Below, one piece after another: positions 9,201-61,721 of a DNA stretch of 64,000 nucleotides. Each line of letters starts with the position of its first letter. The stretch's first letter is position 1. The notes under the pieces are model-generated. The model was not told the origin of the DNA, searched no databases, and worked only from the letters and a program-made list of their open reading frames with translations. The position numbers were made by a program, and so were the translations under genes. The stretch is from Streptomyces lunaelactis (GTDB lineage Bacteria > Actinomycetota > Actinomycetes > Streptomycetales > Streptomycetaceae): assembly GCF_003054555.1 (NCBI RefSeq), contig NZ_CP026304.1:5890001-5954000 (forward strand), written 5' to 3'.

Positions 9201-9544
9201 TCGTTGTCCCGGTTGCTCTATGAACCGGCCGAGTCGCCTCCCAACCACTCGCCCTGTCAGGGCCGTTGACAAATCTCATAACTACTAGAAACCTGTCACT
9301 CGCGTACCGCAAAACATTGACTGATTCGCTCAATTTTGTAAGCAAGCTCTGCGATTTCCCGGCAGGTGCCCTGCTCACTCGCCTGCTGCCGTTCCACGCT
9401 CGCCCTCCACCGGCGCACCGGCAGCCCGCCGCCCGTCGGTATCCGCGGGACGCAAAGCGCAACGCGCCCCCACGGGTACCGGCGCGTCGCACCGCTGTCC
9501 CGGTTCCGCCGCCCCACGGCACCCCACGGAACAAAGAGGACATC
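9201..9544 (+). promoter_or_regulatory. AT-rich promoter region of the GH87 gene
   Basis: Roughly 340 bases without a gene. The middle (about 9266-9350) is strikingly AT-rich for this genome and contains a consensus -35 TTGACA at 9266-9271 followed by CATAACTACTAG, and a second TTGACT near 9317. The remainder is a GC-rich leader ending in AAAGAGGA before ATG 9545. Which hexamers are used cannot be decided by eye. Confidence 0.4.
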
Positions 9545-12500: not shown

Positions 12501-13033
12501 ACGGCAACACGATCGAGAACAACCTGATCTACGACACGATGAACTACCCCGGCATCATGCTGGCCACGGACCACGACCCGCTGCCCTTCTCCGGGCAGAC
12601 GCTGATCGCCAACAACGCGCTGCACCGCACGGGAGGCGCGTTCTGGAACGAGGACCAGGAGTTCGGGGCCATCACGCTCTTCGCGGCCGGCCAGGACATC
12701 CCGGGTGTCACCATCCGCGACACCGAGATCCACGACTCGACGTACGACGGCATCCAGTTCAAGACGGGAGGCGGATCGGTGCCGGGCGTCGCGATCAACA
12801 ACGTCCGGATCGACAAGTCCAACAACGGGTCCGGGATCCTGGCCATGGGAGGCGCCCGCGGCAGCGCGACGCTGACCAACGTGACCATCACCAACTCGGC
12901 GGACGGCAACGTACTGATCGAGCCGGGATCGCAGTTCGTGATCAATGGCGCTGCCGGAGGGGCCAAGGCGCCGAAACCGGCGGGACCGGCCGCGGGTGTG
13001 CGAGTGCCCCATCCGGCCACACGACAGCCGTGA
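9545..13033 (+). CDS. Secreted multidomain alpha-1,3-glucanase/mycodextranase (GH87-like)
   Basis: 1162-residue exported enzyme. Order: signal peptide (1-31, ending VTAAAG); two discoidin/F5-8C carbohydrate-binding domains (about 48-187 and 195-335, starting NLALGKAATASG and NLARNKPIEASS); two CARDB Ig-like domains (about 337-445 and 448-557); a CBM35/CBM6-like domain starting YAEYEAEDAQYQG (about 560-722); and a right-handed beta-helix catalytic domain starting SITSYGAVPNDGIDD (about 735-1133). The catalytic domain has the Asp-rich pattern (NTGDDALAVWASRY) of GH87, whose members cut alpha-1,3-glucan of fungal walls or mutan. A gene-internal start is chosen at ATG 9545 because AAAGAGGA precedes it and the signal peptide begins there. 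It stands alone between two terminators. Confidence 0.85.
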   Translation: MRWTQLGRRLIAGLGLAGLIVVGLLPVTAAAGTFPDAPNALNASAAEGPNLALGKAATASGSHREYSAANVTDGSQQSYWEGPAGAFPQWVQVDLGSSVGVNEVVLKLPSSWEARTQNLSVQGSTDGSGFSTLSAPAARVFNPAAAAANTVSVAFTATNVRYVRVHVTANTGWNAAQLSELEIYGEDSGNPPPAGTNLARNKPIEASSTTQTYVAANANDDSVNTYWESSGFPSTLTVKLGANADLEAVVIKLNPDGAWGTRTQSVQVLGREQSGTGFTSLKDRADYSFNPSGNQNTVTIPVSGGYADVQLKFFSNNGATGGQAAEMQVIGTAAPNPDLTVTELAWTPASPSESDSVTVNATVRNAGTAAAGATTVNVSLAGVVAGSAPVSALASGASATVPVVVGKRPMGSYTVTAVVDPTDTIPEQDNSNNSRTAATNLVVGQSPGPDLEVTGITSNPPNPAVGAAVTFTVAVHNRGTAAVSAGSVTRLAVGSTTLNGTTGAIPAGGTVNAAISGSWTATSGGATLTATADATGVVAETNENNNVFARSVVVGRGAAVPYAEYEAEDAQYQGTLLHADQKRTFGHTNFATESSGRESVRLNSSGQYVEFTSTGAANSIVVRNSIPDAPGGGGNEATISLYVNNTFVRKLNLSSKHSWLYGNTDQPEGLTNNPGADARRLFDESHALLAQTYPEGTKFRLQRDATDSAPFYIIDLIDLEQVAPAASQPAGCTSITSYGAVPNDGIDDTDAIQRAVTADQNGEIGCVWIPAGQWRQEQKILTDDPLNRGEFNQVGIRDVTVRGAGMWHSQLYTLTPPHQAGGINHPHEGNFGFDIDDNTKISDIAIFGSGTIRGGDGNHEGGVGLNGRFGKNTKITNVWIEHANVGAWVGRDFSNIPELWGPGDGLEFSGMRIRNTYADGVNFANGTRNSTVFNSHFRNTGDDALAVWASRYVKDPSVDIGHDNHFRNNTIQLPWRANGIAVYGGYGNTIENNLIYDTMNYPGIMLATDHDPLPFSGQTLIANNALHRTGGAFWNEDQEFGAITLFAAGQDIPGVTIRDTEIHDSTYDGIQFKTGGGSVPGVAINNVRIDKSNNGSGILAMGGARGSATLTNVTITNSADGNVLIEPGSQFVINGAAGGAKAPKPAGPAAGVRVPHPATRQP

Positions 13034-45743: not shown

Positions 45744-47450
45744 TCAGGTCGGGGCCTGGTCCTTCCTGAGCCGGAACCAGTAGAAGCCGTGCCCGGCGAG
45801 AGTCAGCAGGTAGGGCCACTGGCCGATGGGGGGGAACCGCACCCCGCCGATCAGCTCCACCGGATGCCGGCCGCCGAAGGCCCGCAGATCGAGCTCGGTG
45901 GGCTGCGCGAAACGCGAGAAATTGTTGACGCAGAGCACGAGATCGTCCTTGTACTCGCGAAGGAAGGCGAGCACGGCCGGATTCGACGAGGGCAGTTCGG
46001 TGTACGAACCGAGGCCGAAGGCGTGGTTCTGCTTGCGGATCTCGATCATCCGCCGGGTCCAGTGCAGCAGCGATGACGGCGAGGCCATCGCCGCCTCGAC
46101 ATTGGTGACCTGGTAGCCGTAGACCGGATCCATGATCGTGGGGAGATAGAGCCGGCCGGGGTCGCAGGAGGAGAAGCCCGCGTTCCGGTCGGGCGTCCAC
46201 TGCATCGGGGTCCGTACGGCGTCCCGGTCGCCCAGCCAGATGTTGTCGCCCATCCCGATCTCGTCGCCGTAGTACAGGATCGGCGATCCCGGCAGCGACA
46301 GCAGCAGCGCGGTGAACAGCTCGATCTGGTTGCGGTCGTTGTCGAGCAGGGGCGCGAGCCGCCGGCGGATGCCGATATTGGCACGCATCCGCGGGTCCTT
46401 GGCGTACTCCGCGTACATGTAGTCGCGCTCTTCGTCCGTGACCATCTCGAGCGTGAGCTCGTCGTGGTTGCGCAGGAAGATGCCCCACTGGCAGTTCTTC
46501 GGGATCGCCGGGGTCTTGGCGAGGATTTCCGAGACCGGATAGCGCGACTCGCGCCGCACCGCCATGAAGATCCGCGGCATCACGGGGAAGTGGAACGCCA
46601 TGTGGCATTCGTCGCCGCCGGCCGGGAAGTCGCCGAAGTAGTCGACGACGTCCTCCGGCCACTGATTGGCCTCGGCGAGGAGCACGGTGTCCGGGTAGTG
46701 GGCGTCGATCACCTTCCGTACGTGCTTGAGGAAGGTGTGGGCGGCGGGGAGGTTCTCGCAGTTGGTGCCCTCCTCCTTGTACAGATACGGCACGGCGTCC
46801 AGCCGGAAGCCGTCGATGCCCAGGTCCAGCCAGAAGCGCAGCGCCGAGATGATCTCCTCCTGCACCGCCGGGTTCTCGTAGTTGAGATCGGGCTGGTGCG
46901 AGAAGAAACGGTGGAAGTAGTACTGCTTGCGGACCGGGTCGAAGGTCCAGTTGGACGTCTCGGTGTCGACGAAGATGATCCGGGCGTCCTCGAACTGTTT
47001 GTCGTCGTCGGCCCAGACGTAGTAGTCGGCGAACGGCCCTTCCGGGTCGTTGCGGGACTCCTGGAACCACGGGTGCTGATCGCTCGTGTGGTTCATGACG
47101 AAGTCGATGATGACGCGCATACCGCGCTGGTGGGCGGCGTCGACGAACTCCACGAAGTCGGCGAGATCGCCGAATTCGGGCAGCACGGCGGTGTAGTCGG
47201 AGACGTCGTAACCGCCGTCCCTCAGTGGTGACTTGAAGAACGGCGGCAGCCAGAGGCAGTCGACCCCCAGCCACTGCAGATAGTCAAGTTTGGCGGTGAT
47301 GCCCTTGAGGTCGCCGATGCCGTCGCCGTTGCTGTCCTGGAAGGACCGCACGAGGACTTCGTAGAAGACGGCCCGCTTGAACCAGTCGGGATCGCGGTCC
47401 TTGGCGGGGGTGTCCTCGAACAGGTCGTGGACGGGCTCATTGACGATCAT
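45744..47450 (-). CDS. treS: Trehalose synthase (maltose alpha-D-glucosyltransferase)
   Basis: 568-residue GH13 enzyme interconverting trehalose and maltose. Starts [25 protein letters not shown]; nucleophile Asp in [12 protein letters not shown], acid/base Glu in [12 protein letters not shown], and third Asp in [10 protein letters not shown]. Length is that of the single-domain form without fused kinase. ATG 47450 overlaps the glgE stop (ATGA), so GlgE and TreS are made together. It links trehalose to maltose for Pep2. Confidence 0.96.
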
Positions 47451-49558
47451 GATGTGGGTGACCCTCCGATCGGCGGGGACGGTCGCAGAACGACGATGTG
47501 CGCGGGCGTGATGCCCGGCTCGAGGCGCACATAGTTGGCCCTGCCCCAGTGATAGGTCTCGCCGGTGAGCTCGTCGCGCACCGGTGCGCTCTCGTGCCAT
47601 TCGAGGCCGAGGTGCGGCATGTCCAACGAGACCGTGGCCTCCTGGGTGTGGTGGGGGTCGAGGTTGGCGACCACGACGACGGTGTTCGAACCGGAAGCGC
47701 CGTCGGCGGATTTCGAGTACGCGATGACCGCGTCGTTGTCGGTCGGGTGGAAGTGGATGTCACGCAGCTGCTGGAGGGCGGGATTGCGGCGTCTGATCCG
47801 GTTGAGAGTGGTGATCAGCGGGGCGATGGTGCGGCCTTCACGCTCCGCCGACTCCCAGTCGCGCGGGCGCAGTTGGTACTTCTCCGAGTGAAGGTACTCC
47901 TCGCTGCCGTCCCGCAGCGGGGTGTTCTCACAGAGCTCGTAACCGGCGTAGACCCCCCAGGAGGGGGCCATCGTCGCGGCGAGCACCGCCCGTACCTCGA
48001 ACGCGGGCCGGCCGCCCCGCTGGAGGTAGGCGTGCAGGATGTCGGGGGTGTTGACAAAGAAATTGGGCCGCATGTAGGAGGCCGCCTCGCCGGACAGCTC
48101 GGTGAGGTACTCGGTGAGCTCCTGCTTGGTGTTGCGCCAGGTGAAGTACGTGTACGACTGCTGGAACCCGATCGCGGCCAGGGTGTGCATCATCGCCGGA
48201 CGGGTGAACGCCTCGGCCAGGAAGACCACGTCGGGATGGCTGCGGTTGATGTCCGCGATCACCTTCTCCCAGAAGACGACGGGCTTGGTGTGCGGATTGT
48301 CGACGCGGAAGATCCGTACACCGTGGTCCATCCAGAAACGCAGCACCCGCAGCGTCTCGCGGACCAGACCGCGCATGTCCGCCTCGAAGGCGATCGGGTA
48401 GATGTCCTGGTACTTCTTGGGCGGGTTCTCGGCGTACGCGATGGAGCCGTCGGCACGGTGGTGGAACCACTCGGGGTGCTCGGTCACCCAGGGGTGGTCG
48501 GGGGAGCACTGGAGCGCGAAGTCCAGCGCGACCTCCATGCGCAGGGCGCCCGCCGTCTCGACGAAGTGGTCGAAGTCCTCCATGGTCCCGAGACCGGGGT
48601 GGAGCGCGTCATGGCCGCCGTCGGGGGAGCCGATCGCCCAGGGCACCCCGACATCGTCCGCGCCGGGGGAGAGGCTGTTGTCGGGGCCCTTGCGGTGGGT
48701 CGTGCCGATGGGGTGGACCGGCGGCAGATAGACGACGTCGAAGCCCATCGCGGCGACGGCCGGGAGCCGCTCGGCGGCGGTGCGCAAGGTGCCGGGGACG
48801 GGCGGTGCGCCCTCCCTCACGACCGCGCCCTCGGAGCGCGGGAAGAGCTCGTACCAGGAGCCGTACAGCGCGCGCTGCCGCTCGACGAGGAGGGGCAAGG
48901 GGCGGGAGGCGGTGACCAGTTCGCGCAGCGGGTGGCGGTTGAGCGCGGCGGCGGCGTCCGGGGCGAGGGCGGCGGCGAGCCGGGCGGCTGCCGAACGGGT
49001 CTCGTCGCGCAGGGCGTCGACCGCGGCGAGCACGGCCTCCCGCCCGTCGCTCTTGGGCACCCCGGCGGCGGCCCGCTCGTAGAGCTGGGCGCCCTCCGCC
49101 AGGACGAGCGCGGTGTCGATACCGGCGGGGATCTTGATCTGGGCGTGGTGCCGCCAGGTGGCGACGGGGTCGCTCCACCCTTCGACGGCGTACGTCCAGC
49201 GCCCCTCGGCACCGGGAGTGACGTCGGCGCCCCACCGGTCGGTGCCGGGGGTGAGCTCGCGCATGGGGGTCCAGGGGCCGGGGCGGCCGCTGGGATCACG
49301 CAGTACGACATTGGCGGCGACGGCGTCATGACCCTCGCGGAAGACGGTGGCGGTGACCTGGAAGGTCTCACCGGCCACTGCTTTCGCTGGTCTTCTTCCG
49401 CAGTCGACGAGGGGGCGGACGTCCAGGACGGGAATGCGACCGATCATGGGATCACCTGAGGGCTGTGCGGGCAGGGCGGATTGAGCGTGTTGAGTCTTTT
49501 TACGCGGTTTGGGTGTTCTTTGTAGCTGCTCAGTCGACGACTGGCGGGCTGCGGGCAT
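47447..49558 (-). CDS. glgE: Maltosyltransferase GlgE (alpha-1,4-glucan:maltose-1-P)
   Basis: 703-residue GH13_3 enzyme extending alpha-1,4-glucan with maltose from maltose-1-phosphate. An N-terminal region of about 38 residues varies, then the N domain ([22 protein letters not shown], split), the barrel with [13 protein letters not shown] (nucleophile Asp), [12 protein letters not shown] (acid/base Glu), and C-terminal beta domain. ATG 49558 has AGGAG upstream. First gene of glgE-treS, with pep2 and glgB following. A 30-bp internal stretch at 49264-49293 is duplicated upstream of the gene. Confidence 0.96.
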
Positions 49559-49910: not shown

Positions 49911-50840
49911 TCATGACTCCTCACCCGACCACATCTGCCACGGCTGCCTGGCCACCCACTCGTCCACCGGCGCCGGCTTCAGCGAGAGCGCCTCCGCCGA
50001 GACACCGTTGTCACCCGACAGCAGGCCGGGCTCCGCGCCGCTCGCCATGTAGTGGTAGATCCCCGCCACCCCGGCCGCCGACTCCGCGCCCAGGATGTGT
50101 GCGAGCCCCTGCTGGAAGACCGTCGGCTGCAGCTCTACGTAACGGATCTCGCGCCCGAGACCCTGCCCGAACGCCGTCGCCAGCTCCTGGCCCGTCAGCG
50201 TCTGCGCGCCGCCGATGTCGAAGGTGCGGCCTGCCACGCCCTCCACCGTGAGCGCCGCGTACACCGCCTCCGCCAGGTCCCGGTGCGAGATCCAGGCGGT
50301 CGGCACCTCGGCGGGCAGCGGGTAGGCGAGCACGCCCTCGTTCACCAGCGCCGGGCCGTTCCACGGGCTGAAGAGGTTGTCGAGATAGACCGGCGGGCGT
50401 ACGACCACCACCTCCACACCGCTGTGGGCGAGGCTCTCCCGGACCACCGTCTCGGCCAGCCGGCGCGTCTCGAAGGCCGCGACATTCGTGGACCGCTCCG
50501 GGACACGGGTGTTGGAGTTGTAGACCAGCCGCCGCAGCCCGGCCTCACGGGCCGCCTTGGCGATGTGCTGCGCGTACGTCATGACCTTCTCGGCCTGGTA
50601 CACCAGCGGTATCACCACCGCGGCGTGCGTGGCTCCCTCGAAGAGCCGGCGAACGTCCTCGTAGCGCCCGAGGTCACCCCCGGCGACGGAGATGCCGGGG
50701 AGCTCCGGCCGGTCCGCCTCGGGCCTGCGGCTCAGCGTGCGGACCCGGTGTTTCCGCTCGGCCAGCAGACGGGCCGTCGCGCCCCCCTGGAAGCCGGTCG
50801 CCCCCACAACCGCGATGCGCATCGGAATGTGATCGGACAT
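49911..50840 (-). CDS. NmrA-family NAD(P)-binding reductase
   Basis: 309 residues, atypical SDR. N-terminal VVGATGFQGGATARLLAERKHRVRTLSR (split) has the GATGFQG cofactor loop of NmrA/HSCARG-type proteins. Later AAVVIPLVYQAEKVM, YNSNTRVPERSTN and VVVVRPPVYLDNL follow. Members are redox sensors or quinone/aldehyde reductases. ATG 50840 chosen; ATG 50822 also open. Divergent from the AraC gene, with a possible binding repeat between them. Confidence 0.88.
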   Translation of the reverse strand: MSDHIPMRIAVVGATGFQGGATARLLAERKHRVRTLSRRPEADRPELPGISVAGGDLGRYEDVRRLFEGATHAAVVIPLVYQAEKVMTYAQHIAKAAREAGLRRLVYNSNTRVPERSTNVAAFETRRLAETVVRESLAHSGVEVVVVRPPVYLDNLFSPWNGPALVNEGVLAYPLPAEVPTAWISHRDLAEAVYAALTVEGVAGRTFDIGGAQTLTGQELATAFGQGLGREIRYVELQPTVFQQGLAHILGAESAAGVAGIYHYMASGAEPGLLSGDNGVSAEALSLKPAPVDEWVARQPWQMWSGEES

Positions 50841-50892: not shown

Positions 50893-50958
50893 CAGGCTCG
50901 CGTCGGCGGCTTCGGCCAATCAATTAACAAACCGGGGCGGAGGTTGAAGGATCGTCCA

Positions 50959-51912
50959 ATGGAACCTACGGACCGCGAAGGCGACGATCTCCTCAGTGAA
51001 CTGCTGAAACCCCTCCGTCTCACAGGGGTCTTCGACAGCCGGTGGCATGTCCGCGCTCCCTGGGCCATCGAGGGTGACGCGGAACAGAGCTGCGCCGTAC
51101 TGCACTTCATCACCGAGGGCGGCTGCTGGATCACCGGCGCGGACCAGACCCCGCTCGAACTGCACGCGGGAGACCTCGCCCTGTTCCCCACCGGCACCGC
51201 CCACCGGCTCTCCGACCGGCCCGACAGGCGCGGCGTGGCGCTCGCCGCCGTACTGCCCGAGCGCGAGCCCGGCACCTCCGGCGAGATCAGGATCGAGGGC
51301 GAGGGACCCGTGAGCCGGCTTCTCTGCGCCGGGCTGCACTACGACGCGAGCGCCGCCACGCACCTCTACAAGGCGCTGCCCTGGGCCCTGGTGCTCGACG
51401 GCTCCCAGGTGGACAAGGAGCCCCTGCTGCGCGACACCCTGCGGCTGCTCGCCACCACGGACCGCCCAGTAGGACCGGGCGACCGGCTGATCACTCTACG
51501 CGCGTTCGAGATGGCGCTGGTGCTCGCGCTGCGGCCGCTGCTGTGCGAGCTGGCCGACAATCCCTCGTCGCTGCCCGTGCTGCGCCACCCCGGCATCAGC
51601 AAGGCGATGGTGATGATGGCGACCCGGTTCGCCGAGCCCTGGACCGTCGAGTCGCTCGCCCGTGAGGTGGGCATGTCGCGCTCCGCCTTCACCGCCGCCT
51701 TCCGTGACCTGGTGGGCGAGGCGCCCGCACGGCATCTGACGGGCCGGCGGATGCAGGAGGCGGCCCGGCTGCTCGGCGAGACCTCGCTGCCCCAGTCCGC
51801 GGTGCCGGAGCGCGTCGGGTACCAGAGCGCCGTCGGTTTCCACCTCGCCTTTCGCAAGTGGTACGGGAAGACGCCGGGAGAGTACCGATCAGGAAGCTCC
51901 TCAGCTGCATGA
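50959..51912 (+). CDS. AraC-family regulator with cupin domain
   Basis: 317 residues. N-terminal cupin-type sensor (ITEGGCWITGADQTPLELHAGDLALFPTG, split) and a C-terminal pair of HTHs (SLAREVGMSRSAFTAAFRDLVGEAPARHL and ERVGYQSAVGFHLAFRKWYGKTPGEYR, split). ATG 50959 has AAGGA 7 bases upstream. It is immediately ahead of the monooxygenase-exporter set in the same direction (103-bp gap) and divergent from the NmrA gene, so it is the probable pathway switch. Confidence 0.93.
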   Translation: MEPTDREGDDLLSELLKPLRLTGVFDSRWHVRAPWAIEGDAEQSCAVLHFITEGGCWITGADQTPLELHAGDLALFPTGTAHRLSDRPDRRGVALAAVLPEREPGTSGEIRIEGEGPVSRLLCAGLHYDASAATHLYKALPWALVLDGSQVDKEPLLRDTLRLLATTDRPVGPGDRLITLRAFEMALVLALRPLLCELADNPSSLPVLRHPGISKAMVMMATRFAEPWTVESLAREVGMSRSAFTAAFRDLVGEAPARHLTGRRMQEAARLLGETSLPQSAVPERVGYQSAVGFHLAFRKWYGKTPGEYRSGSSSAA

Positions 51913-52015
51913 CTGGCTGGTTCTTAATCACCGCTGGACGGTCGTTCATTGCCGACTGTCCCTGGCTGGAGCGAGGCTCGGCTATGTCGGGGGACGTTCC
52001 GTTTGAGGAGAGACG

Positions 52016-53467
52016 TTGACCAGGTCCGGCCAGGAATACCTCGATTCGCTCCGGGACGGGCGCGAGGTGTGGCTCGACGGCGAACGGGTCAAGGACGTCA
52101 CCCGCCATGCCGCCTTCCGCAACACCGCGTCGTCGATCGCACGCCTCTACGACCTGGCGCACGAATCGGAGCACCGTGAAGTGCTCACCTCCGGCGGTGT
52201 CCACCGCGCCTTCGCCGTACCGCGCTCGTACGAGGACCTGGTCGCGCGGCGCAAGGCGTACAAGGTGTGGGCGGAATCGAGCTTTGGCTTCCTGGGCCGT
52301 TCGCCCGACTACATGGCGGGCGGTGCGGCCGGATTCGCCGCCGTGCCGCAGCTGTTCACCACCGACTCCTTCGACGGCGCCGACAACGCCCTCGCCTACC
52401 ACCGCAGGCTCGCCGAGGGTGATCTGTACTCGGCCTTCACCATCACCAACCCGCACTCCGGCGAGGGGGAGGACGACCTGGTGGTGCGGGTCGTCGCCGA
52501 GAAGGACGGCGGCATCGTGGTGAGCGGCGCCAAGACGGTCGGCACCGGTGCGGTCTTCGCCGACGAGGTGATCGTCGGCACGATCGAGCCGCTGGCCCCG
52601 GGGGACGTGGAGCACGCGCTGTGCTTCTCGGTGCCCATCGGCACACCCGGCCTGCGGTTCGTCTCGCGCACCTCGTACGAGGCACAGGCCCGCAGCGTCT
52701 TCGACAACCCGCTCTCCTCCCGTTTCGACGAGAACGACGCGCTGCTCGTGTGCGAGGACGTCTTCGTGCCGTGGGAACGGGTGCTGACGTACCGCAACGT
52801 CGAGGCGACCGGCGCGATGTGGTGGCAGACCCCCGCCTATCTCAACTTCGGGCACCAGGCGGCCACCCGCTTCTGGACCAAGCTCGAATTCCTCACCGGC
52901 CTCGCGATCCTGCTGACCCGCACCAACAAGACGTACCAACTCCCCGCCGTCACCCAGTCGGTCGGCCGGCTGCTCGGCATGGTCGCCCAGGCCAAGGCCT
53001 TCGTGCTCGCCGCGGAGGCGAGCTACGAACAGGTCGACGGCGGCCGCGGGGGCGTCAGGCCGGGCCAGGAGATCTCCTTCGCCCAGCGCATCATGGCCGG
53101 TGAGCTCTACCCGCGCGCCGTCCAGGAGATCAAGCTGCTCGCGGGCGGCGGCGTCATCCAACTGCCCGCGTCCGCCGAGGATCTGCTCCACCCGCAGCTC
53201 GGTCCCGTCGTCAGGAAGTATCTGCGTGCGCCGGGGAGTTCGGCCGAGGACCGGATCAAGCTGCTCAAGCTGGTCTGGGACGCGCTCGGTTCGGAGTTCG
53301 CCGGCCGCCATGAGCAGTACGAGCGCTTCTACCACGGCGCCCCGCACGTCTATCTGACCATGCAGACGTGGGCCGGTGGCGCCGAGAACTGCGAGGAGCT
53401 GGCCCGGGCCTGTCTCGACGGCTACGGTCTCCCTCCGGCCGGACAGGACCTGGGGACCGACAAGTGA
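52016..53467 (+). CDS. HpaB-type FADH2-dependent monooxygenase
   Basis: 483 residues, of the 4-hydroxyphenylacetate 3-hydroxylase oxygenase family (acyl-CoA-dehydrogenase fold). It begins SGQEYLDSLRDGREVWLDGERV, with YSAFTITNPHSGEGEDD and FVPWERVLTYRNVEAT in the body and GRHEQYERFYHGAP near the end. Such enzymes ortho-hydroxylate phenols or related aromatics with FADH2 from a separate reductase, which is not encoded here. TTG 52016 has GAGGAGAG upstream. Its stop overlaps the exporter start (GTGA), so they are coupled. Confidence 0.92.
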   Translation: MTRSGQEYLDSLRDGREVWLDGERVKDVTRHAAFRNTASSIARLYDLAHESEHREVLTSGGVHRAFAVPRSYEDLVARRKAYKVWAESSFGFLGRSPDYMAGGAAGFAAVPQLFTTDSFDGADNALAYHRRLAEGDLYSAFTITNPHSGEGEDDLVVRVVAEKDGGIVVSGAKTVGTGAVFADEVIVGTIEPLAPGDVEHALCFSVPIGTPGLRFVSRTSYEAQARSVFDNPLSSRFDENDALLVCEDVFVPWERVLTYRNVEATGAMWWQTPAYLNFGHQAATRFWTKLEFLTGLAILLTRTNKTYQLPAVTQSVGRLLGMVAQAKAFVLAAEASYEQVDGGRGGVRPGQEISFAQRIMAGELYPRAVQEIKLLAGGGVIQLPASAEDLLHPQLGPVVRKYLRAPGSSAEDRIKLLKLVWDALGSEFAGRHEQYERFYHGAPHVYLTMQTWAGGAENCEELARACLDGYGLPPAGQDLGTDK

Positions 53468-54879
53468 CCTCGGCCCGCAAGGGGGCCGCGCTCGCACTGC
53501 TCGCCGCCACCCAGCTGCTGCTGATCATGGACACCGCGATCATCAATGTCGCGCTGCCCTCGGTCGGCGACGATCTCGGCTCGGGCTCGGCAGGTCTGTC
53601 CTGGGTGGCCAACGCGTATCTGATCACCTTCGGCGGGCTGCTGCTCCTCGGCGGCCGCACCGCCGATCTGCTGGGCCACCGGCGGCTCTACCTCACCGGA
53701 CTCGGCCTGCTCGCCGCCGCATCCGCGGCCGGAGGCATCGCGGGGACCGCGGGCGAGCTGATCGCGGCGCGGGCGGTGCAGGGCGTGGGGGCCGCACTCG
53801 CCGCCGCCGCGGCCTTCGCCCTGTTGCTCAACCTCTTCCCCGACGGGCCGGACCGGCACAGGGCGCTCGGCGCGTTCGCCGCGATGGGCGGGCTCGGCGG
53901 GGTGACGGGCACCGTGCTCGGCGGGGTGCTCACCGATCTGCTCGGCTGGCGCTCCACGTTCTGGCTCAATGTGCTCCTCGCCCTGGTGCTCGGGCTGCTC
54001 GCACTGCGCGTTCTCGACGGGGGGACGCGCAGCGCACAGTCCGGCTTCGACCTCGGCGGCGCGCTCACCGCGACGGGCGGACTCGGCCTGGTGGCGTACG
54101 CACTCGTCGGCGCGGGCGAGGCGGGCTGGACCTCCCCGCGCACCCTCGCCGCAGGCGGCGCAGGACTCCTCCTGCTGGCGGCGTTCGCGGTGGTGGAGTC
54201 GCGGGTCGCCCGCCCGCTGGTGCCGCCCGCCGTACTGCGACGGCCCGCGCTGCGCGACGCCAACATCCTCAGTGCGCTGGCCCAGATGGCGCTGTTCCCG
54301 ATGTTCTTCCTGGTCAGCCTCTATCTGCAGAGCGTGCTCGGACAGTCCCCGCTGACCGGCGGGCTCGGCCTGCTGCCGCTGTCGCTGGCCGTTGTCGCCG
54401 TCGCGCCGCAGACCGGCCGTCTCATCTTCCGTATCGGGCTCGGGTCCACCATGACGCTCGGCTTCGGACTGCTGTTCGTGGGCATGGTCTGGCTGGCGCT
54501 CGCTCTCGCCGCCGACGGCACCTTCCTCAGCACCGTTCTCGCGCCCAGCCTGGTCCTCGGCGTCGCCCTGCCGCTGGTCATGGTCACCACCAATGTGGCC
54601 GCGACCGCGGAGGCCGCGCCCGAGGAGACCGGGCTCGCCTCCGGACTCATCAACACCAGCCAGCAGTTCGGCTCGGTGCTCGGACTCGCCGTGCTGGTGG
54701 GCGTCGCCACCGCCGCAGGCGGCTCGTCGGCCGCCGCCCAGACCGCGGGTTTCCGGTCCGCGCTGCTGGCCGGCGCCGCCTTCGCGGCCCTGGCCACCCT
54801 GCTCTCCGTACGACTGCGGCTGCCCGTGCCCGCGATGGCGTCGCCACGCCAGGACCGGACAGGCGGCGCCGTGGAGTGA
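53464..54879 (+). CDS. MFS exporter, DHA2 (14-TM) type
   Basis: 471-residue major facilitator with 14 predicted spans. DHA2 landmarks: LLLIMDTAIINVALPSVGDDL in TM1, GGRTADLLGHRRLYLTG in the first loop, and motif C-like GLGGVTGTVLGGVLTD. Drug or metabolite efflux with protons is the family role. GTG 53464 overlaps the monooxygenase stop. Its place inside the enzyme set suggests it exports the product and gives self-protection (inference). Confidence 0.93.
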   Translation: MTSARKGAALALLAATQLLLIMDTAIINVALPSVGDDLGSGSAGLSWVANAYLITFGGLLLLGGRTADLLGHRRLYLTGLGLLAAASAAGGIAGTAGELIAARAVQGVGAALAAAAAFALLLNLFPDGPDRHRALGAFAAMGGLGGVTGTVLGGVLTDLLGWRSTFWLNVLLALVLGLLALRVLDGGTRSAQSGFDLGGALTATGGLGLVAYALVGAGEAGWTSPRTLAAGGAGLLLLAAFAVVESRVARPLVPPAVLRRPALRDANILSALAQMALFPMFFLVSLYLQSVLGQSPLTGGLGLLPLSLAVVAVAPQTGRLIFRIGLGSTMTLGFGLLFVGMVWLALALAADGTFLSTVLAPSLVLGVALPLVMVTTNVAATAEAAPEETGLASGLINTSQQFGSVLGLAVLVGVATAAGGSSAAAQTAGFRSALLAGAAFAALATLLSVRLRLPVPAMASPRQDRTGGAVE

Positions 54880-54998
54880 CCGTGTGCGGCGCGCAAGCGT
54901 GCGGAGTACGCATGCGGCTTCAGCGTCCGGTGACCGCGTGACGCGAGCCGCTCCGCATCCCACCCACTGAACCGATGTTGCCCAAGGGGGGCATTCCG

Positions 54999-56114
54999 TT
55001 GACCCTGTACGACCTTGTCGCGCCCGGTCTCGATCTGCGCGGCGAACCGCGCTACCGGATAGCCGAGATACGCGCGGCCGATCCGCTCGGCGCCGACGCA
55101 ATGCTGGCCGCACTGCCCGCGATGAACGCCGCCGCCGATGTGCCCGCGCTCACCGTCGCCCTGCGCGCCCTGGTGCCCGATCCCGACCGGGTCGCCGCAC
55201 TCAGCGTCGTCGACGCGCTCGCCGCCATGCGCGACCTCGGCATCCTCCTCGGCTCCCTCAAACGCCACGGTACCGAGCCCGTCCCGGCCGTGCCCGAAGT
55301 CCTGCCGGTGCTCGAGGAGCTGGGGCGGCGCACCGACATGGTGCCGCGCGACACCGTGCACCACTACACGACCTGGAACCCTCTCGGCGCCAGGCAGCGG
55401 ATGTACACCGGCGACAGGATGGAGGCCAGTCTCCAGGACGCGGTCCGGATGGTCTTCCCCAGCCTGGTCGCCGCGCTCGGCACCTGCGCGGAGCTCGCCC
55501 GCCTGGAACCCTACGACCCCGGCTTCGCACTCTGCCTCGACCGCACCGCCCAGCATGTGCAGGCCATGGTGGACTCCATCGACTTCACCGTCGCCAACGT
55601 CTCGCCGGTCTTCTTCGCGCAGGAGATGCGCTCCTACTTCGAGGAGATCGACGTCGCGGGCCACGAGTACCTGGGCCCGGCCGCCGCCCAGGTGCCGCTC
55701 TGGCTGGTCGATCTGACCCTGTGGCAGTGCGACCGCAGCAACCCGAAGTACGACGCGTTCCTGCGCGAGTCGGTGCAGTACAGCCTCCCGTCCTGGCGCG
55801 ACCACTACGCCAGGCACCAGGGCGGCACCTCCGCCGTCTCCAAGCTCTCCGCGGCCATCAGCTGGGAGGCGGTCGACCGGCTGCCGCAGCAACTCGCCGC
55901 CTCCGCGGTCTCCCTCGCCCGGGTGCTGCGCATCCTCAAGACCTTCCGCGCCCGCCATATGACCATCGCCCGCAAGGCGTACAGCGAGGACGTGCGGCTC
56001 TACGACATGGGCAGCGGCGGGGCCCCCATCGAACTGCTGCGCTCGGTACTCGATCTGACCCGGGACAACGAAACCCTCGTACGCCGCTCCGTCGAACGGC
56101 CGAACACCCCCTGA
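54999..56114 (+). CDS. PrnB-like haem enzyme (DUF1864 family)
   Basis: 371 residues from TTG 54999, set by AAGGGGGG 7 bases upstream. It resembles PrnB, the pyrrolnitrin enzyme that rearranges 7-chlorotryptophan to monodechloroaminopyrrolnitrin and is a haem protein related to indoleamine/tryptophan dioxygenases. Points of likeness: GILLGSLKRHGTEPVP, TWNPLGARQRMYTG, EYLGPAAAQVPLWLVDLTLW and FRARHMTIARKAY. H320 in the last is the best candidate for the axial haem ligand. No halogenase (PrnA), PrnC or PrnD lies nearby, so the substrate may be plain tryptophan or another indole. Identification is from remembered family sequence. Confidence 0.8.
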   Translation: MTLYDLVAPGLDLRGEPRYRIAEIRAADPLGADAMLAALPAMNAAADVPALTVALRALVPDPDRVAALSVVDALAAMRDLGILLGSLKRHGTEPVPAVPEVLPVLEELGRRTDMVPRDTVHHYTTWNPLGARQRMYTGDRMEASLQDAVRMVFPSLVAALGTCAELARLEPYDPGFALCLDRTAQHVQAMVDSIDFTVANVSPVFFAQEMRSYFEEIDVAGHEYLGPAAAQVPLWLVDLTLWQCDRSNPKYDAFLRESVQYSLPSWRDHYARHQGGTSAVSKLSAAISWEAVDRLPQQLAASAVSLARVLRILKTFRARHMTIARKAYSEDVRLYDMGSGGAPIELLRSVLDLTRDNETLVRRSVERPNTP

Positions 56115-56145
56115 CCGTCCCGACCGCCGAAGGAAGTCCGACCCC

Positions 56146-57432
56146 ATGACCCACATAATGATCGCCGGCGGTGGAATCGCGGGGCTCACCGCGGCACTCG
56201 CCCTGCACACCGCCGGATTCGAGCGGATCACCGTCGTCGAGACGGCCCCCGAGATCCACCCGGTCGGCGCCGGACTCAACATCATGCCCAACGCGGTACG
56301 CGAACTCGACGCGCTCGGGCTGCTCGACCGTCTCGAGGAGCGAGCCGTACGCACCCATGAGCTGCGCTACTACCACCGCAGCGGCGGACTCATCTCCCGC
56401 GAGCCGCGCGGCCTCGGCGCCGGATACCACTGGCCCCAGCTCTCCATCCAGCGCGGCGATCTCCAACTGGTGCTCGCCGACGCGGTACGGACAAGGCTCG
56501 GCGCGGGCGCCCTGGTGGGCGGGGTGCGCGTCATCGGCGTGGAGCCGATGCCGGACGGGCGCCCACGCGTCCAGCTGGAGCACCGCGACGGTGCCCGGCG
56601 CGGCAAGGCCTCCCTCGAACCGGACCTCCTCATCGGCGCCGACGGCATCCGCTCGGCGGTCCGGGCCGCGCTCAACCCCGGCGAGGGCGAGCCGCCGTGG
56701 AACGGCATGCTGGTGTGGCGCGGCGTCTCCAGGATGGCCGCCCACCGGATCGGCACGTTCATGTTCATCGCGGGCGACGACCGGCAGAAGGCCGTGGTCT
56801 ACCCGATGACCTCGCCTGACAAGGACACCGGTGAGGTCCTCGTCAACTGGGCGCTCGCGATGCCCGCCGACGCCGTCGACGACGCTACGCGCGGAGACTG
56901 GAACCGGCAGGTGCCCGTCGAGAAGTTCCTCCACCACTACGAGGGCTGGGACTTCGACGGCGTCAGCGTCACCGAGGTCCTCCGCGCCGCCGACACGGCC
57001 TTCGAGTACCCGATGGTGGACCGCGAGCCCCTGGAGCGCTGGTCCCACGGCCGTACGACGCTGATCGGCGACGCGGCCCACGCGATGTACCCGATCGGCT
57101 CCAACGGCGCGACCCAGTCCATCGTCGACGGCCGCGCACTCGCCCACGCCATGGCCCGGTACTCCGAGCCGGCCCACGCGCTGGCCGCGTACGAGGCGGA
57201 GCGCCGGCCGGCCATGACCGAGCTCCAGCGGGCGAACCGGCAGCTCGGCCCCGAGGTCGTCATCAACCTCGCCCACGAACGGGCACCCGGCGGCTTCACC
57301 GACATCGAGGAGGTGATTCCGGCGCGGGAACGCGCCGAGATCGCAGCCCGTTACGCGGCGACCGGGGCCTTCGACCCGGCGAGGGTCAACCAGGGTTCCC
57401 CGTACGGCCTTTCGGTGCGTTCGCTGCGCTGA
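56146..57432 (+). CDS. PhzS-like FAD-dependent aromatic monooxygenase
   Basis: 428 residues, class A flavin hydroxylase. FAD motif IAGGGIAGLTAALALHTAGF, DG motif LLIGADGIRSAVRAAL, and GD motif TTLIGDAAHAMYPIGSNGATQ. The segments THELRYYHRSGGLISREPRG and EYPMVDREPLERWSHGR are close to PhzS, which turns 5-methylphenazine-1-carboxylate into pyocyanin; salicylate-hydroxylase-like chemistry (oxidative decarboxylation) is possible. It uses NAD(P)H itself. Start ATG 56146, 31 bases behind the PrnB-like gene, the end of the set. Confidence 0.9.
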   Translation: MTHIMIAGGGIAGLTAALALHTAGFERITVVETAPEIHPVGAGLNIMPNAVRELDALGLLDRLEERAVRTHELRYYHRSGGLISREPRGLGAGYHWPQLSIQRGDLQLVLADAVRTRLGAGALVGGVRVIGVEPMPDGRPRVQLEHRDGARRGKASLEPDLLIGADGIRSAVRAALNPGEGEPPWNGMLVWRGVSRMAAHRIGTFMFIAGDDRQKAVVYPMTSPDKDTGEVLVNWALAMPADAVDDATRGDWNRQVPVEKFLHHYEGWDFDGVSVTEVLRAADTAFEYPMVDREPLERWSHGRTTLIGDAAHAMYPIGSNGATQSIVDGRALAHAMARYSEPAHALAAYEAERRPAMTELQRANRQLGPEVVINLAHERAPGGFTDIEEVIPARERAEIAARYAATGAFDPARVNQGSPYGLSVRSLR

Positions 57433-57570: not shown

Positions 57571-60231
57571 GTGAAGGCCATTCGTCGATTCACCGTCCGC
57601 CCCGTCCTCCCCGGACCTCTCAGCCCGCTCAGCGACCTCGCGCGCAATCTGCGCTGGTCCTGGCACACCGAAACCCGAGACCTCTTCCAGTCCGTCGACC
57701 CCGAGGGGTGGCAGGCCGCCGGGGGCGATCCTGTGCGGCTGCTCGGGGCCGTCTCCGCCGCTCGACTGGCCGAGCTGGCCGGGGACCGGCGCTTTCTGCG
57801 CAGACTGACCGCCGCGGCCGACGACCTGGACGACTATCTGCACGGCCGCAGGTGGTACCAGGCCAACAGCGGCGCCCCCGGGGACACCGACCCCGAGGCG
57901 CCGGAGTTCCCGGCCGCGGTGGCCTACTTCTCACCCGAGTTCGGCGTCACCGCCGCACTCCCGCAGTACTCCGGCGGCCTCGGCATCCTCGCCGGAGACC
58001 ATCTCAAGGCCGCCAGCGACCTCGGCGTACCGCTCATCGGGGTCGGCCTGCTCTACCGGCACGGCTACTTCCGCCAGTCCCTGTCCCGCGACGGCTGGCA
58101 GCAGGAGCACTATCCGCTGCTCGACCCGAACGAGCTGCCGCTGAGCCTGCTGCGGGAGGGCGACGGGACACCCTGCCGGGTCTCCCTCGCACTGCCCGGC
58201 GGGCGCTCGCTGCGCGCCCATATCTGGGTCGCGCGGGTCGGCCGTGTACCGCTGCTGATGCTCGACTCGGACGTCGAGGAGAACGGCCCCGGCGAGCGCG
58301 AGGTCACCGACCGGCTGTACGGCGGCGGCAGCGAGCACCGGCTGCTGCAGGAGATGCTGCTGGGGATCGGGGGAGTGCGGGCGGTACGGGCGTACTGCCG
58401 GCTGACCGGACACCCCGCGCCCGAGGTGTTCCACACCAACGAGGGCCACGCCGGTTTCCTCGGCCTGGAGCGCATCCGCGAACTGGGTGACACGGGTCTG
58501 GACTTCGACGCGGCCCTGGAGGCGGTGCGGGCGGGCACCGTCTTCACCACGCACACCCCCGTGGCCGCCGGCATCGACCGCTTCGACCGCGAGCTCGTCG
58601 CCCGGCACTTCGGCGAGCGCGGGGAGCTGGCGGGAGTGCCGGTCGAGAAGGTGCTCCAGCTCGGCATGGAGACCTATCCGGGCGGCGAGCCCAATCTCTT
58701 CAACATGGCGGTGATGGGGCTGCGGCTGGCCCAGCGCGCCAACGGGGTCTCCACGCTCCACGGGGCCGTGAGCCGCGGCATGTTCGCCGGTCTGTGGCCG
58801 GGCTTCGACGCCGAGGAGGTGCCGATCACCTCCGTCACCAACGGGGTGCACGCGCCCACCTGGGTGGCGCCCGAGGTGTTCCGCCTCGGGGTGCGCCAGA
58901 TCGGGGTGAGCCGGGCCGAGGACGCCCTGTCCGTGGGCGGCTCCGAACGCTGGGACGCCGTGGCCGACATCGCGGACGCCGACATCTGGGAGCTGCGGCG
59001 CGCGCTGCGCGAGCAGCTGGTCCTGGAGGTGCGGTCGCGGCTGAACGCCTCCTGGCGGCAGCGCGGCGCCGGCGCGGCCGAACTGGGCTGGATCGACGGG
59101 GTCCTGGACCCGGACGTGCTCACCATCGGCTTCGCCCGCAGGGTCCCCTCGTACAAACGGCTCACGCTGATGCTGCGCGACCGCGACCGGCTGATGGAAC
59201 TGCTGCTGCACCCGACCCGCCCGGTCCAGATCGTCGTCGCGGGCAAGGCGCATCCGGCGGACGACAGCGGGAAGCGGCTGGTCCAGGAGCTGGTGCGATT
59301 CGCGGACGATCCGCGCGTCCGTCATCGCATCGTCTTCCTGCCCGACTACGGCATGGCGATGGCGCAGAAGCTCTACCCGGGCTGCGATGTGTGGCTGAAC
59401 AATCCGCTGCGGCCGCTGGAGGCGTGCGGGACGAGCGGGATGAAGGCGGCGCTGAACGGCTGCCTCAATCTGTCGGTGCTGGACGGCTGGTGGGACGAGT
59501 GGTTCGAGCCGGACTTCGGCTGGGCCATCCCGACCGCGGACGGCTCGGCGACCGACGACGACCGGCGCGACGATCTGGAGGCGGCCGCGCTGTACGAGCT
59601 GATCGAGGAGCGGGTGGCCCCCCGCTTCTACGACCGCAACGGCAGTGGACTGCCCGGACGCTGGATCGAAATGGTCCGCCGTACGCTGACGACGCTCGGC
59701 CCCAAGGTGCTCGCGGGCCGCATGGTGCGCGAGTACGTGGAGCGTCTGTACGCCCCCGCGGCCCGGGCCCACCGTTCCCTGAACGCCGATACGGCAAGGG
59801 AGCTTGCGGCCTGGAAGTCCCGGGTGCGCGCCGCCTGGCCGTGGGTGGCCGTCGACCATGTGGAGGCGCTGGAACAGGCGGCCGCGGCGGGCGGCACGGC
59901 GGAGCTCGGCTCAACCCTCGCCCTGCGGGTGCGGGTCGCCCTCGGCGAACTCCAGCCGGACGATGTGGAGGTACAGGCGGTGGCGGGCCGCGTCGACTCC
60001 GACGACGCGATCGCCGGCGCCCAGAACTTCCCGCTGAAGCCGACGGGCGGTCCCGACCTGGAGGGCCGCTGGGTCTACGAGGGGCCGCTCGCCCTCGACA
60101 GCACGGGCCCCTTCGGCTACACGGTGCGCATCCTCCCGGCCCACCGACTGCTCGCCGCCAGCGCGGACCTGGGTCTGGTGGCGTTGCCGACGGAGGCGAC
60201 GGGGGAGGGCGCGGGAGTGCTGATGCGCTGA
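57571..60231 (+). CDS. glgP: Alpha-glucan phosphorylase
   Basis: 886-residue phosphorylase (GT35), degrading alpha-1,4-glucan with phosphate to glucose-1-phosphate; also able to use phosphate to trim GlgE polymer. It is the archaeal/actinobacterial type with N-terminal DUF3417 (MKAIRRFTVRPVLP ... LARNLRWSW). YFSPEFGVTAALPQYSGGLG, FHTNEGHAGFLGLER, TTHTPVAAGIDRF, and the PLP-site part ACGTSGMKAALNG, where K holds the cofactor, are visible. Start GTG 57571. It is on the strand opposite to glgE, 8 kb away. Confidence 0.96.
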   Translation: MKAIRRFTVRPVLPGPLSPLSDLARNLRWSWHTETRDLFQSVDPEGWQAAGGDPVRLLGAVSAARLAELAGDRRFLRRLTAAADDLDDYLHGRRWYQANSGAPGDTDPEAPEFPAAVAYFSPEFGVTAALPQYSGGLGILAGDHLKAASDLGVPLIGVGLLYRHGYFRQSLSRDGWQQEHYPLLDPNELPLSLLREGDGTPCRVSLALPGGRSLRAHIWVARVGRVPLLMLDSDVEENGPGEREVTDRLYGGGSEHRLLQEMLLGIGGVRAVRAYCRLTGHPAPEVFHTNEGHAGFLGLERIRELGDTGLDFDAALEAVRAGTVFTTHTPVAAGIDRFDRELVARHFGERGELAGVPVEKVLQLGMETYPGGEPNLFNMAVMGLRLAQRANGVSTLHGAVSRGMFAGLWPGFDAEEVPITSVTNGVHAPTWVAPEVFRLGVRQIGVSRAEDALSVGGSERWDAVADIADADIWELRRALREQLVLEVRSRLNASWRQRGAGAAELGWIDGVLDPDVLTIGFARRVPSYKRLTLMLRDRDRLMELLLHPTRPVQIVVAGKAHPADDSGKRLVQELVRFADDPRVRHRIVFLPDYGMAMAQKLYPGCDVWLNNPLRPLEACGTSGMKAALNGCLNLSVLDGWWDEWFEPDFGWAIPTADGSATDDDRRDDLEAAALYELIEERVAPRFYDRNGSGLPGRWIEMVRRTLTTLGPKVLAGRMVREYVERLYAPAARAHRSLNADTARELAAWKSRVRAAWPWVAVDHVEALEQAAAAGGTAELGSTLALRVRVALGELQPDDVEVQAVAGRVDSDDAIAGAQNFPLKPTGGPDLEGRWVYEGPLALDSTGPFGYTVRILPAHRLLAASADLGLVALPTEATGEGAGVLMR

Positions 60232-60292: not shown

Positions 60293-60482
60293 TCGCCGTT
60301 CGCCCCTCCGGCCGCGACTTTGCCCACGGCCTTCCTCGCGACTTTCTTCATGTCCTGAAGTCAAGCCTTGACGTGCTCATGGGATGCCCCTAACTTCCAG
60401 ATCCACGCTTCAGTTCACTCTCACATCCAGCGTTCATGTGAGTGAACCTCGTTGGATGGCCCCCACCCGGAAGGCAACCCCC

Positions 60483-61721
60483 ATGCGTACCGGATCCACC
60501 ACGCACGCCCTGCGCAGACCCAAACTGCTGATGACGGCTCTCGCCACCGTCCTGGCCTCAGTGCTCGCCGCGGTGCTGACAGCCCCGGCCTCGGCCGTGA
60601 AAGAGACGCCCGCCCACGCCCAACTCGCCGCCGCCCCCGTGAACTTCACCCACCCCGGCGTACTCGTCAGCCGTCCCCAGCTCGACTTCGTGAAGGCCAA
60701 GGTCCAGGCCGGCGCCCAGCCCTGGAAGGGCGCCTACGACCAGATGCTCGGCAGCAAGTACGCCTCGCTCACCCGTACCGCCAAGCCGCGCGCGATCGTC
60801 GAGTGCGGCTCGTACTCCAACCCCAACAACGGCTGCACGGACGAGCGCGAGGACGCGATCGCCGCGTACACCCTCTCGCTGGCCTGGTACATCGGCGGAG
60901 ACAGCCGCTACGCCACGAAGTCGATCGAGATCATGGACGCCTGGTCCGCCGTGATCAAGGACCACACCAACAGCAACGCCCCGCTGCAGACCGGCTGGGC
61001 CGGCTCCTCCTGGCCGCGGGCCGCCGAGATCGTCAAGTACACCTACAGCAGCTGGCCGAACTCCGGCCGCTTCGGCACCATGCTGCGCAACGTCTACCTT
61101 CCGAAGGTCATCAACGGCTCGCACTCCAACGGCAACTGGGAGCTGAGCATGGTCGAGGCCGCGATCGGCATCGCGGTCTTCCTGGAGGACCGCGGCGCCT
61201 ACGACAAGGCCGTCACCAAATTCCGCGGCCGCGTCCCCGCGTACATCTACGTGACCTCGGACGGCTCCCTGCCCAAGACCGCGCCCGGCTCCGGTCTCGA
61301 CACCCGCGACGAGATCATCGGGTACTGGCAGGGCCAGTCGACCTTCATGAACGGGCTCAGCCAGGAGACCTGCCGCGATCTCACCCACACCGGATACGGA
61401 CTCTCCGCCATCTCGCACATCGCCGAGACCAGCCGCATCCAGGGCCAGGACCTCTACCCCGAGGTCGCCGAACGGCTCCGTCACGCGCTGGGCCTGCACG
61501 CCAAGTACCAGCTCGGCGAGCCCGTGCCCGGCAATCTCTGCAACGGCAGCCTCAAGGACAAGCTCGGCCCCATCACCGAGGTCGGCTTCAACGCCCTGCA
61601 CAACCGCATGGGCATCGGCATGACCAACACCCAGCGCCTCACCGAGCAGCAGCGACCGGCCGGGTCCAACAACCTGTTCGTCGCCTGGGAAACGCTCACC
61701 CACGCGGGCAACACGGCATAG
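60483..61721 (+). CDS. Secreted alginate-lyase-family enzyme
   Basis: 412 residues, with signal peptide ending TAPASA (about residue 38) and an (alpha/alpha) toroid lyase domain. Starts FTHPGVLVSRPQLDFVKAKV; then GSYSNPNNGCTDEREDAIAAYTLSLAWYI (split), LQTGWAGSSWPRAAEI, and NGNWELSMVEAAIGIAVFL (split), with N and H residues characteristic of the PF05426 fold, and YGLSAISHIAETSRIQGQDLY. Substrate in Streptomyces is not proven; alginate or other uronate polymer is possible. ATG 60483 follows GGAAGG; ATG 60456 is also open. Confidence 0.9.
   Translation: MRTGSTTHALRRPKLLMTALATVLASVLAAVLTAPASAVKETPAHAQLAAAPVNFTHPGVLVSRPQLDFVKAKVQAGAQPWKGAYDQMLGSKYASLTRTAKPRAIVECGSYSNPNNGCTDEREDAIAAYTLSLAWYIGGDSRYATKSIEIMDAWSAVIKDHTNSNAPLQTGWAGSSWPRAAEIVKYTYSSWPNSGRFGTMLRNVYLPKVINGSHSNGNWELSMVEAAIGIAVFLEDRGAYDKAVTKFRGRVPAYIYVTSDGSLPKTAPGSGLDTRDEIIGYWQGQSTFMNGLSQETCRDLTHTGYGLSAISHIAETSRIQGQDLYPEVAERLRHALGLHAKYQLGEPVPGNLCNGSLKDKLGPITEVGFNALHNRMGIGMTNTQRLTEQQRPAGSNNLFVAWETLTHAGNTA

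Follow-up and report, generated by a model that had tools for sequence, protein, structure and literature searches.

The stretch analysed in this work (the window, 64,000 nucleotides; G000:C1:5890001-5954000) belongs to the 8.57 Mb genome of Streptomyces lunaelactis and harbours a cassette of six genes wedged between glgE and glgP. An NmrA-like NAD(P)-binding protein of 309 amino acids (49911..50840, minus strand; PF05368, 9.3e-29) is encoded divergently from an AraC-family regulator with Cupin_6 domain (317 amino acids; 50959..51912, plus strand; PF12852, 1.8e-37; PF12833, 1.6e-19). The regulator gene is followed on the same strand by genes for the oxygenase part of an HpaB-like two-component FAD monooxygenase (483 amino acids, TTG start; 52016..53467; HpaB_N, 6e-81; HpaB, 8.2e-54), a predicted DHA2-like exporter of the major facilitator superfamily (MFS; 471 amino acids, GTG start; 53464..54879; MFS_1, 2e-44), a PrnB-type haem enzyme (371 amino acids; 54999..56114; PrnB Pfam family, 6e-36) and a PhzS-like single-component FAD monooxygenase (428 amino acids; 56146..57432; FAD_binding_3, 8.5e-24). 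The NmrA gene adjoins the AraC gene in cassette loci and sits within the operon in the sister clusters described below. The flanking genes, glgE maltosyltransferase (47447..49558, minus strand; PF11896, PF21702) and glgP alpha-glucan phosphorylase (57571..60231, plus strand; PF11897, PF00343), lie outside the cassette.

The initial annotation of this DNA described four genes on one strand behind an AraC regulator. All four reading frames indeed lie on the plus strand between 52016 and 57432, and Pfam matches (HpaB_N/HpaB, FAD_binding_3 and PrnB) bear out the two flavin hydroxylases and the PrnB-like protein named there. The gene set is thus upheld but not its extent, since the unit comprises six genes, with the AraC gene and the divergent NmrA gene included. 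The single stop-start overlap reported is readable in the sequence: the HpaB stop codon occupies 53465-53467 and the MFS start codon GTG 53464-53466, the MFS start being corrected to 53464 from that of the mechanical open reading frame. An exporter with 14 transmembrane segments agrees with the MFS_1 match and 14 hydropathy peaks; its TIGR00711 score (193.9) is under the cut-off of 230.2 and does not settle the exporter subfamily. The mechanical reading frame of PrnB begins at ATG 54975. Its start is probably TTG 54999 behind AAGGGGGG; several close homologues are 373 amino acids long. As also claimed, no nonribosomal peptide synthetase, polyketide synthase, halogenase, methyltransferase or flavin reductase was found by Pfam among the six proteins between glgE and glgP (nine other reading frames of the window were sampled).

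A 14-base element, TGAAGGATCGTCCA, which is a candidate operator, is located directly before the AraC start codon (50945..50958, plus strand), overlapping its ribosome-binding stretch. A second copy (51935..51948, minus strand) lies upstream of HpaB with a conserved block around it. Allowing one mismatch at most, these are the only two matches in the window, against 0.06 expected, and each lies in one of the two conserved regions. The form TGAANGANCGTCCA occurs in 30 of 32 NmrA/AraC gaps and in 11 of 32 AraC/HpaB gaps. When at most sixteen loci were aligned, the NmrA/AraC gap proved strongly conserved and the block upstream of HpaB conserved, while the MFS-PrnB gap was not. These patterns are only suggestive of a candidate AraC site. 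It is reasonable to suppose that the genes from HpaB to PhzS would form a single operon under AraC control.

Conservation and inheritance of the cassette

The same gene order is found in tens of genomes, and chance arrangement is therefore ruled out; the outcome that would have refuted the initial annotation, a set not kept together elsewhere, was not observed. Scanning contigs with the PrnB protein yielded 22 loci, 20 of which are Streptomyces loci with cassette PrnB and PhzS together. The cassette is interrupted by contig ends in two of them (L005, L013), and a third (L015) has no MFS match between HpaB and PrnB. The remaining two loci, from Glycomyces (L020) and Microtetraspora (L021), are PrnB-PhzS pairs in other surroundings. 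In the Microtetraspora row (L021:7147-14856), adenylation and carrier proteins, a PhyH oxygenase, PrnB, PhzS, a ketosynthase and a weak P450 match stand together.

Since the scan favours close relatives, an additional Pfam family search was performed. Among 392 genomes of the genus, 49 contain PF08933, with 50 places in total; all 49 places besides that of the window were retrieved and sorted, the window included. They comprise 33 cassettes of the window type, four sister clusters with trp genes (L053-L056), three PrnB-PhzS-methyltransferase sets (L057, L066, L067), one PrnB without PhzS (L058), one very distant protein (L059) and eight distant relatives in two other, partly similar contexts (L060, L061, L072, L096; L062-L065). 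Both glgE and glgP are present within the stretch in 28 of the 33 cassettes. In the exceptions, the glgE side runs into a contig end (L074, L080, L099) or carries different genes (L075), and L100 is without glgP. No MFS match was found in L071 and L093, the HpaB of L071 being also truncated, and L074 and L075 have no AraC or NmrA in the stretch. A class-wide search was positive in 9 of 394 genomes, six of them of the same genus. The cassette suggests an overlooked metabolite in about one twelfth of sampled Streptomyces genomes (33/392).

The eight distant relatives are 28-35% identical to the window PrnB. Their contexts, with pyridoxal phosphate-dependent decarboxylase, GHMP-type kinase, methyltransferase and glycosyltransferase-like protein (phosphotransferases and amine oxidase are added in L063), are a separate unexplored PrnB setting; a PDB search with the GHMP-kinase-like protein of L063 gave no match. 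In a genome of another family, a PrnB relative (47%) is found beside a protein with cucumopine-synthase C-terminal domain (L121:7429-9539).

We wondered how old this arrangement might be. When the family was searched with the PhzS protein, 18 of 200 genomes gave matches at 1e-100 or better, and this search brought up five genomes from a second genus. When 13 genomes were tested for PF08933, six were positive, namely all five of the second genus and one of another genus. All four loci retrieved from the second genus carry glgE-NmrA-AraC-HpaB-MFS-PrnB-PhzS-glgP in the same order. Decay at the same glgE-glgP site was observed in two genomes of the window's genus: one keeps PhzS with PrnB reduced to a 432-base remnant (L109:9048-10831), the other keeps PrnB with a PhzS remnant (L120:9229-10613).

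For distance comparisons 34 loci were picked, and 32 were used after L004 and L015 had been dropped as incomplete. Distances of the six cassette proteins track those of glgE+glgP (r 0.82 to 0.93; none of 999 permutations as high), a test that cannot tell inheritance by descent from transfer between close relatives. AraC displays the lowest mean protein distance among the six. The ratio of nonsynonymous to synonymous polymorphism (pN/pS) is 0.26 to 0.46 for cassette genes, 0.29 for glgE and 0.33 for glgP. The best reading of these data is an ancient locus that keeps its place on the chromosome, is passed on with it and has disappeared from some lineages.

PrnB and the two flavin monooxygenases

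The window PrnB scores 124.5 bits against PF08933 (cut-off 27), and its best PDB match by sequence is PrnB (3.9e-62); no NCBIfam match was obtained. Residues were counted in 62 near-type rows, nine of which are second fetches of a locus, with the eight distant rows counted apart. The L059 protein (G344), which has the best Pfam score yet is 19% identical to the window PrnB, was treated as another branch and left out of the counts (no tblastn hit). We take His313 to be the haem ligand of PfPrnB. The proximal haem histidine of the window protein is H328 and its loop serine is S347 (numbered from the ATG), each kept in 61 of the 62 rows. In FbPrnB the loop serine is Ser319, equivalent to Ser332 of PfPrnB (PMC11791213). 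Pocket positions His116, Tyr104 (of FbPrnB) and Ser332 are kept in 62, 62 and 61 rows, respectively. The carboxylate-binding Gly210-Gly211 stretch of FbPrnB, AGGGQ, is replaced by PAAA in 62/62, though PfPrnB differs too (PGAVE). Fold details are those of PrnB rather than of indoleamine 2,3-dioxygenase, and the window protein is as near to PfPrnB as crystallised FbPrnB is. Judged by its sequence, haem ligand and modelled fold, it is a genuine PrnB. A tryptophan hydroxylase of the tryptophan 2,3-dioxygenase (TDO) type was rejected on family grounds, as PF03301 was not matched at E up to 0.001; one PF03301 gene is present elsewhere in this genome.

The PhzS-like protein exceeds the cut-off of NCBIfam subfamily NF005720 (505.8 bits, cut-off 400), of which PhzS itself is presumably a member. 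Its best PDB match is 3c96/2rgj (7.5e-87), labelled 'flavin-containing monooxygenase', which we take to be PhzS by name. In addition, the N-terminal FAD-binding part gives a weak 59-residue match to PF04820 (26.6 bits, cut-off 21). The enzyme thus resembles PhzS of the phenazine pathway in subfamily and best structural match, but its near-constant neighbour here is PrnB, and no phenazine genes were found by Pfam among the genes from glgE to glgP, the stretch searched. PhzS follows PrnB in 40 of the 41 near-type places of the genus sample (33+4+3 of 33+4+3+1), and a four-base overlap between them was seen in 13 of 61 rows, representing 12 distinct loci. Beyond the genus sample, L121 lacks PhzS and the decayed L120 has PhzS only as a remnant. 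PrnB works in cells and not when purified; for inactive purified PrnB of other strains, missing cellular component(s) have been suspected (PMC11791213). The tight PrnB-PhzS coupling may reflect a partner or product-trapping step, which would help explain this inactivity. The many natural PrnB genes that are tied to a single flavin enzyme in Streptomyces strains amenable to culture offer a new way to test this long-standing puzzle of PrnB chemistry.

By sequence, the best PDB match of the HpaB-like protein is 4oo2 (labelled chlorophenol-4-monooxygenase), followed by 4-hydroxyphenylacetate 3-monooxygenases. Its NCBIfam equivalog scores are below cut-off (296.7 vs 885.2 and 287.2 vs 480.2 bits). 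In Thermus HpaB, Arg100, Tyr104 and His142 are described as holding the phenol, His142 as deprotonating it and Ser197-Thr198 as holding the carboxylate (PMC10537072; see also PMC8342789). The window protein keeps the first two (R95, Y99), while the catalytic histidine is replaced by F141 and the carboxylate pair by I190-E191. The 'HpaB-type' label of the initial annotation accordingly holds for both HpaB domains and fails for the histidine base. Cassette and sister enzymes gave 47 distinct sequences (56 rows, nine being second fetches). The Arg100 position is arginine in 46 of 47; the Tyr104 position is tyrosine in 39, cysteine in six, leucine in one and histidine in one. Phenylalanine occupies the His142 position in all 46 readable distinct sequences and histidine in none, the truncated L071 being unreadable there; Ile-Glu replaces Ser197-Thr198 in 46/46 readable ones.

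HpaB-family proteins of Streptomycetaceae served as control (22 places over cut-off, 17 with locus). One control locus (L131) is the second-genus cassette copy and has phenylalanine, whereas the other 16 proteins have histidine in 14 cases, tyrosine in one (L134) and serine in one (L139). In the sample studied, phenylalanine in place of the catalytic histidine is therefore a sequence mark of cassette and sister enzymes. These share with 4-hydroxyphenylacetate 3-monooxygenase both Pfam domains and the FAD-site arginine, and differ from it in both replaced positions; the cassette defines an HpaB subclass with altered active site. The phenylalanine argues against a 4-hydroxyphenyl acid as substrate. 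It is compatible with, but no proof of, a decarboxylated amino-aryl substrate such as the PrnB product.

The L134 protein (G791:C42:100363) is 43% identical to that of the window and possibly represents a link to the altered subclass. A second HpaB-family gene of the window's genome (L133; G000:C1:3047383-3048177) retains the histidine.

A possible route from tryptophan and its alternatives

The four sister clusters encode the same six families, with identities to the window proteins of 64-66% (HpaB), 61-63% (MFS), 56-57% (PrnB), 54-57% (PhzS), 51-54% (NmrA) and 47-50% (AraC). They add a second PhzS, a ketosynthase, a DsbA-like protein, trpC, trpD, a MocR-type regulator and trpG- and trpE-like genes, and three of the four a berberine-bridge oxidase; L056 reaches the contig end before trpG and trpE. 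Gene names come from Pfam and NCBIfam runs of the L054 proteins and from similarity in the other clusters. By these names, the gene sets gave no match to a known compound. L054 TrpC and TrpD are above NCBIfam equivalog cut-offs (375.6 vs 329 and 364 vs 199). Indole-3-glycerol phosphate synthase (TrpC) and anthranilate phosphoribosyltransferase serve only tryptophan synthesis, and the two genes therefore represent a supply line for tryptophan. In Glycomyces, a protein of the Pfam Trp_halogenase family precedes PrnB-PhzS, with flavin reductase and ketosynthases behind, and L058 has a halogenase fragment near PrnB. A shorter sister without HpaB was found in a further genus (L114; AraC, NmrA, ketosynthase, PrnB, PhzS, DsbA-like protein and berberine-bridge oxidase, to near the contig end). 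Tryptophan is the likely precursor of the cassette pathway. The earlier proposal of a tryptophan-converting set thus stands as regards the conserved oxygenases, the genuine PrnB and the likely precursor, and is amended to a six-gene unit with NmrA, probably controlled by AraC.

We tentatively favour a biosynthetic cassette that would convert tryptophan to an oxygenated, non-chlorinated arylpyrrole for export. From the computed gene set and its conservation, the identity and modelled fold of PrnB, the changed HpaB active site and the shared 14-base element, we infer the regulation, the chemical steps in their sequence, the product and what the pump carries as follows. The AraC protein would sense a small molecule and switch on the HpaB-MFS-PrnB-PhzS operon as well as the divergent promoter region of its own gene. 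PrnB would act on tryptophan that has not been chlorinated and, by the rearrangement and decarboxylation known from pyrrolnitrin synthesis, yield an aminophenylpyrrole. The PhzS-like enzyme would carry out the first hydroxylation, on the PrnB product, and the HpaB-like enzyme a second oxygenation, on a substrate that lacks a carboxylate and for which a histidine base is unnecessary. FADH2 for the latter could come from general flavin reductases, such as one of four encoded elsewhere in the genome. The NmrA protein might handle or sense a state that is quinone-like or linked to NAD(P), and the product would be exported by the MFS pump.

With the pyrrolnitrin pathway prnABCD of Pseudomonas, Burkholderia and Serratia the cassette shares PrnB, as judged by the features given above, and has HpaB-like and PhzS-like monooxygenases, NmrA, AraC and MFS instead of the rest. 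A pyrrolnitrin cluster was rejected, as no halogenase (prnA/prnC) or Rieske protein (prnD) is found among the eight proteins from glgE to glgP. 3-(2'-Aminophenyl)-pyrrole and marinoquinoline A are reported from Rapidithrix thailandica (PMC2630848), so an unchlorinated arylpyrrole is a known natural product and the proposed intermediate appears realistic; this marine gliding bacterium was compared by compound, not by genes.

Several observations weigh against the arylpyrrole route. Published descriptions of pyrrolnitrin clusters give prnABCD and no gene resembling PhzS, HpaB or NmrA (PMC11791213). Relatives of PrnB may also catalyse other reactions, as a Paenibacillus one has been proposed, untested, to hydroxylate tryptophan residues (PMC13036774). 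Evidence for tryptophan comes from sister loci, not from the window. There, the L054 TrpE-like protein is the best match yet under its NCBIfam cut-off (334.7 vs 517.7), the TrpG-like protein reaches the cut-off only of the subfamily that anthranilate and aminodeoxychorismate enzymes have in common and is thus indistinguishable from an aminodeoxychorismate subunit, and the Glycomyces halogenase passes no NCBIfam cut-off. HpaB is absent from six of the retrieved PrnB-PhzS stretches (L020, L021, L057, L066, L067, L114), so PrnB-PhzS does not require it everywhere. Taken by itself, the change at Ser197-Thr198 carries little weight, as both residues vary in ordinary HpaB relatives too. The cassette has no flavin reductase of its own, the four genes of that family being elsewhere in the genome. 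With the exception of AraC, pN/pS of cassette genes is above that of both flanks. Of the 32 gaps upstream of HpaB only 11 contain the 14-base element, and eight loci of the sister type or the second genus do not have it at all; overlap of its first copy with the AraC ribosome-binding stretch may explain part of its conservation.

Less probably, the PrnB-family enzyme is a tryptophan mono-oxygenase giving hydroxytryptophan or oxindole, and HpaB and PhzS, both ring hydroxylases, would oxidise the intact indole to an exported dihydroxyindole or indolequinone. Other haem aromatic oxygenases of the superfamily (BifE, MarE) are reported to oxygenate tryptophan, and the eight distant PF08933 places have quite different gene contexts. 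The known bacterial tryptophan hydroxylases (Luz15, BifE) are described as members of the TDO subfamily; they share histidine-ligated haem and tryptophan as substrate, but the window protein matches another Pfam family, PF08933, and not PF03301. Its closeness to PfPrnB also speaks against this reading, and an HpaB without phenol base and carboxylate pair fits a phenolic amino acid poorly.

It is unlikely that the cassette serves catabolism or detoxification, with AraC and NmrA sensing a foreign aromatic or indole, the oxygenases opening or inactivating it and the pump removing it. The Cupin_6-containing AraC, NmrA and the drug-type pump would suit such a role, and loss or decay in some genomes (L109, L120, L071) suits an accessory function. 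On the contrary, sister loci with trp supply, ketosynthase and tailoring enzymes follow biosynthetic logic, and no ring-cleavage dioxygenase or CoA ligase was found by Pfam among the six proteins. Most doubtful is the view that the substrate is some amino acid other than tryptophan, or a compound derived from anthranilate: sister clusters supply anthranilate besides indole precursors and the FbPrnB carboxylate-binding stretch is altered, but sister trpC is needed only if indole is made, a halogenase is associated and the three pocket positions are retained.

The PrnB family label is already in use, the 120 homologues listed being named 'monodechloroaminopyrrolnitrin synthase (PrnB family)', DUF1864 or hypothetical protein; what we consider new is PrnB chemistry in an old, widespread setting with altered HpaB. 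Among the matches listed in the open-access literature, to the extent of the text available, no description of the cassette was found (subscription papers and MIBiG lay outside the search), nor any DUF1864-Streptomyces paper, and none on aminophenylpyrrole or phenylpyrrole in Streptomyces describes it. Extending the arylpyrrole route more speculatively, this may be a PrnB pathway native to Streptomycetaceae that predates the split of Streptomyces and the second genus. Tryptophan would be rearranged without halogenation and then oxygenated by two enzymes, the PhzS-type one linked to PrnB and one of a new HpaB subclass which, lacking the histidine base, would act on a neutral or basic arylpyrrole. 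The products might form a common overlooked arylpyrrole family, elaborated in sister clusters by ketosynthase, berberine-bridge oxidase and DsbA-like protein with their own trp supply, and chlorinated in Glycomyces.

Two further genes of the window were noted. A big modular protein with alpha-1,3-glucanase catalytic domains, CARDB and F5/8 type C domains is encoded at 9266-13033. An alginate-lyase-family protein (60384-61721) follows glgP and occupies the same place in several relatives.

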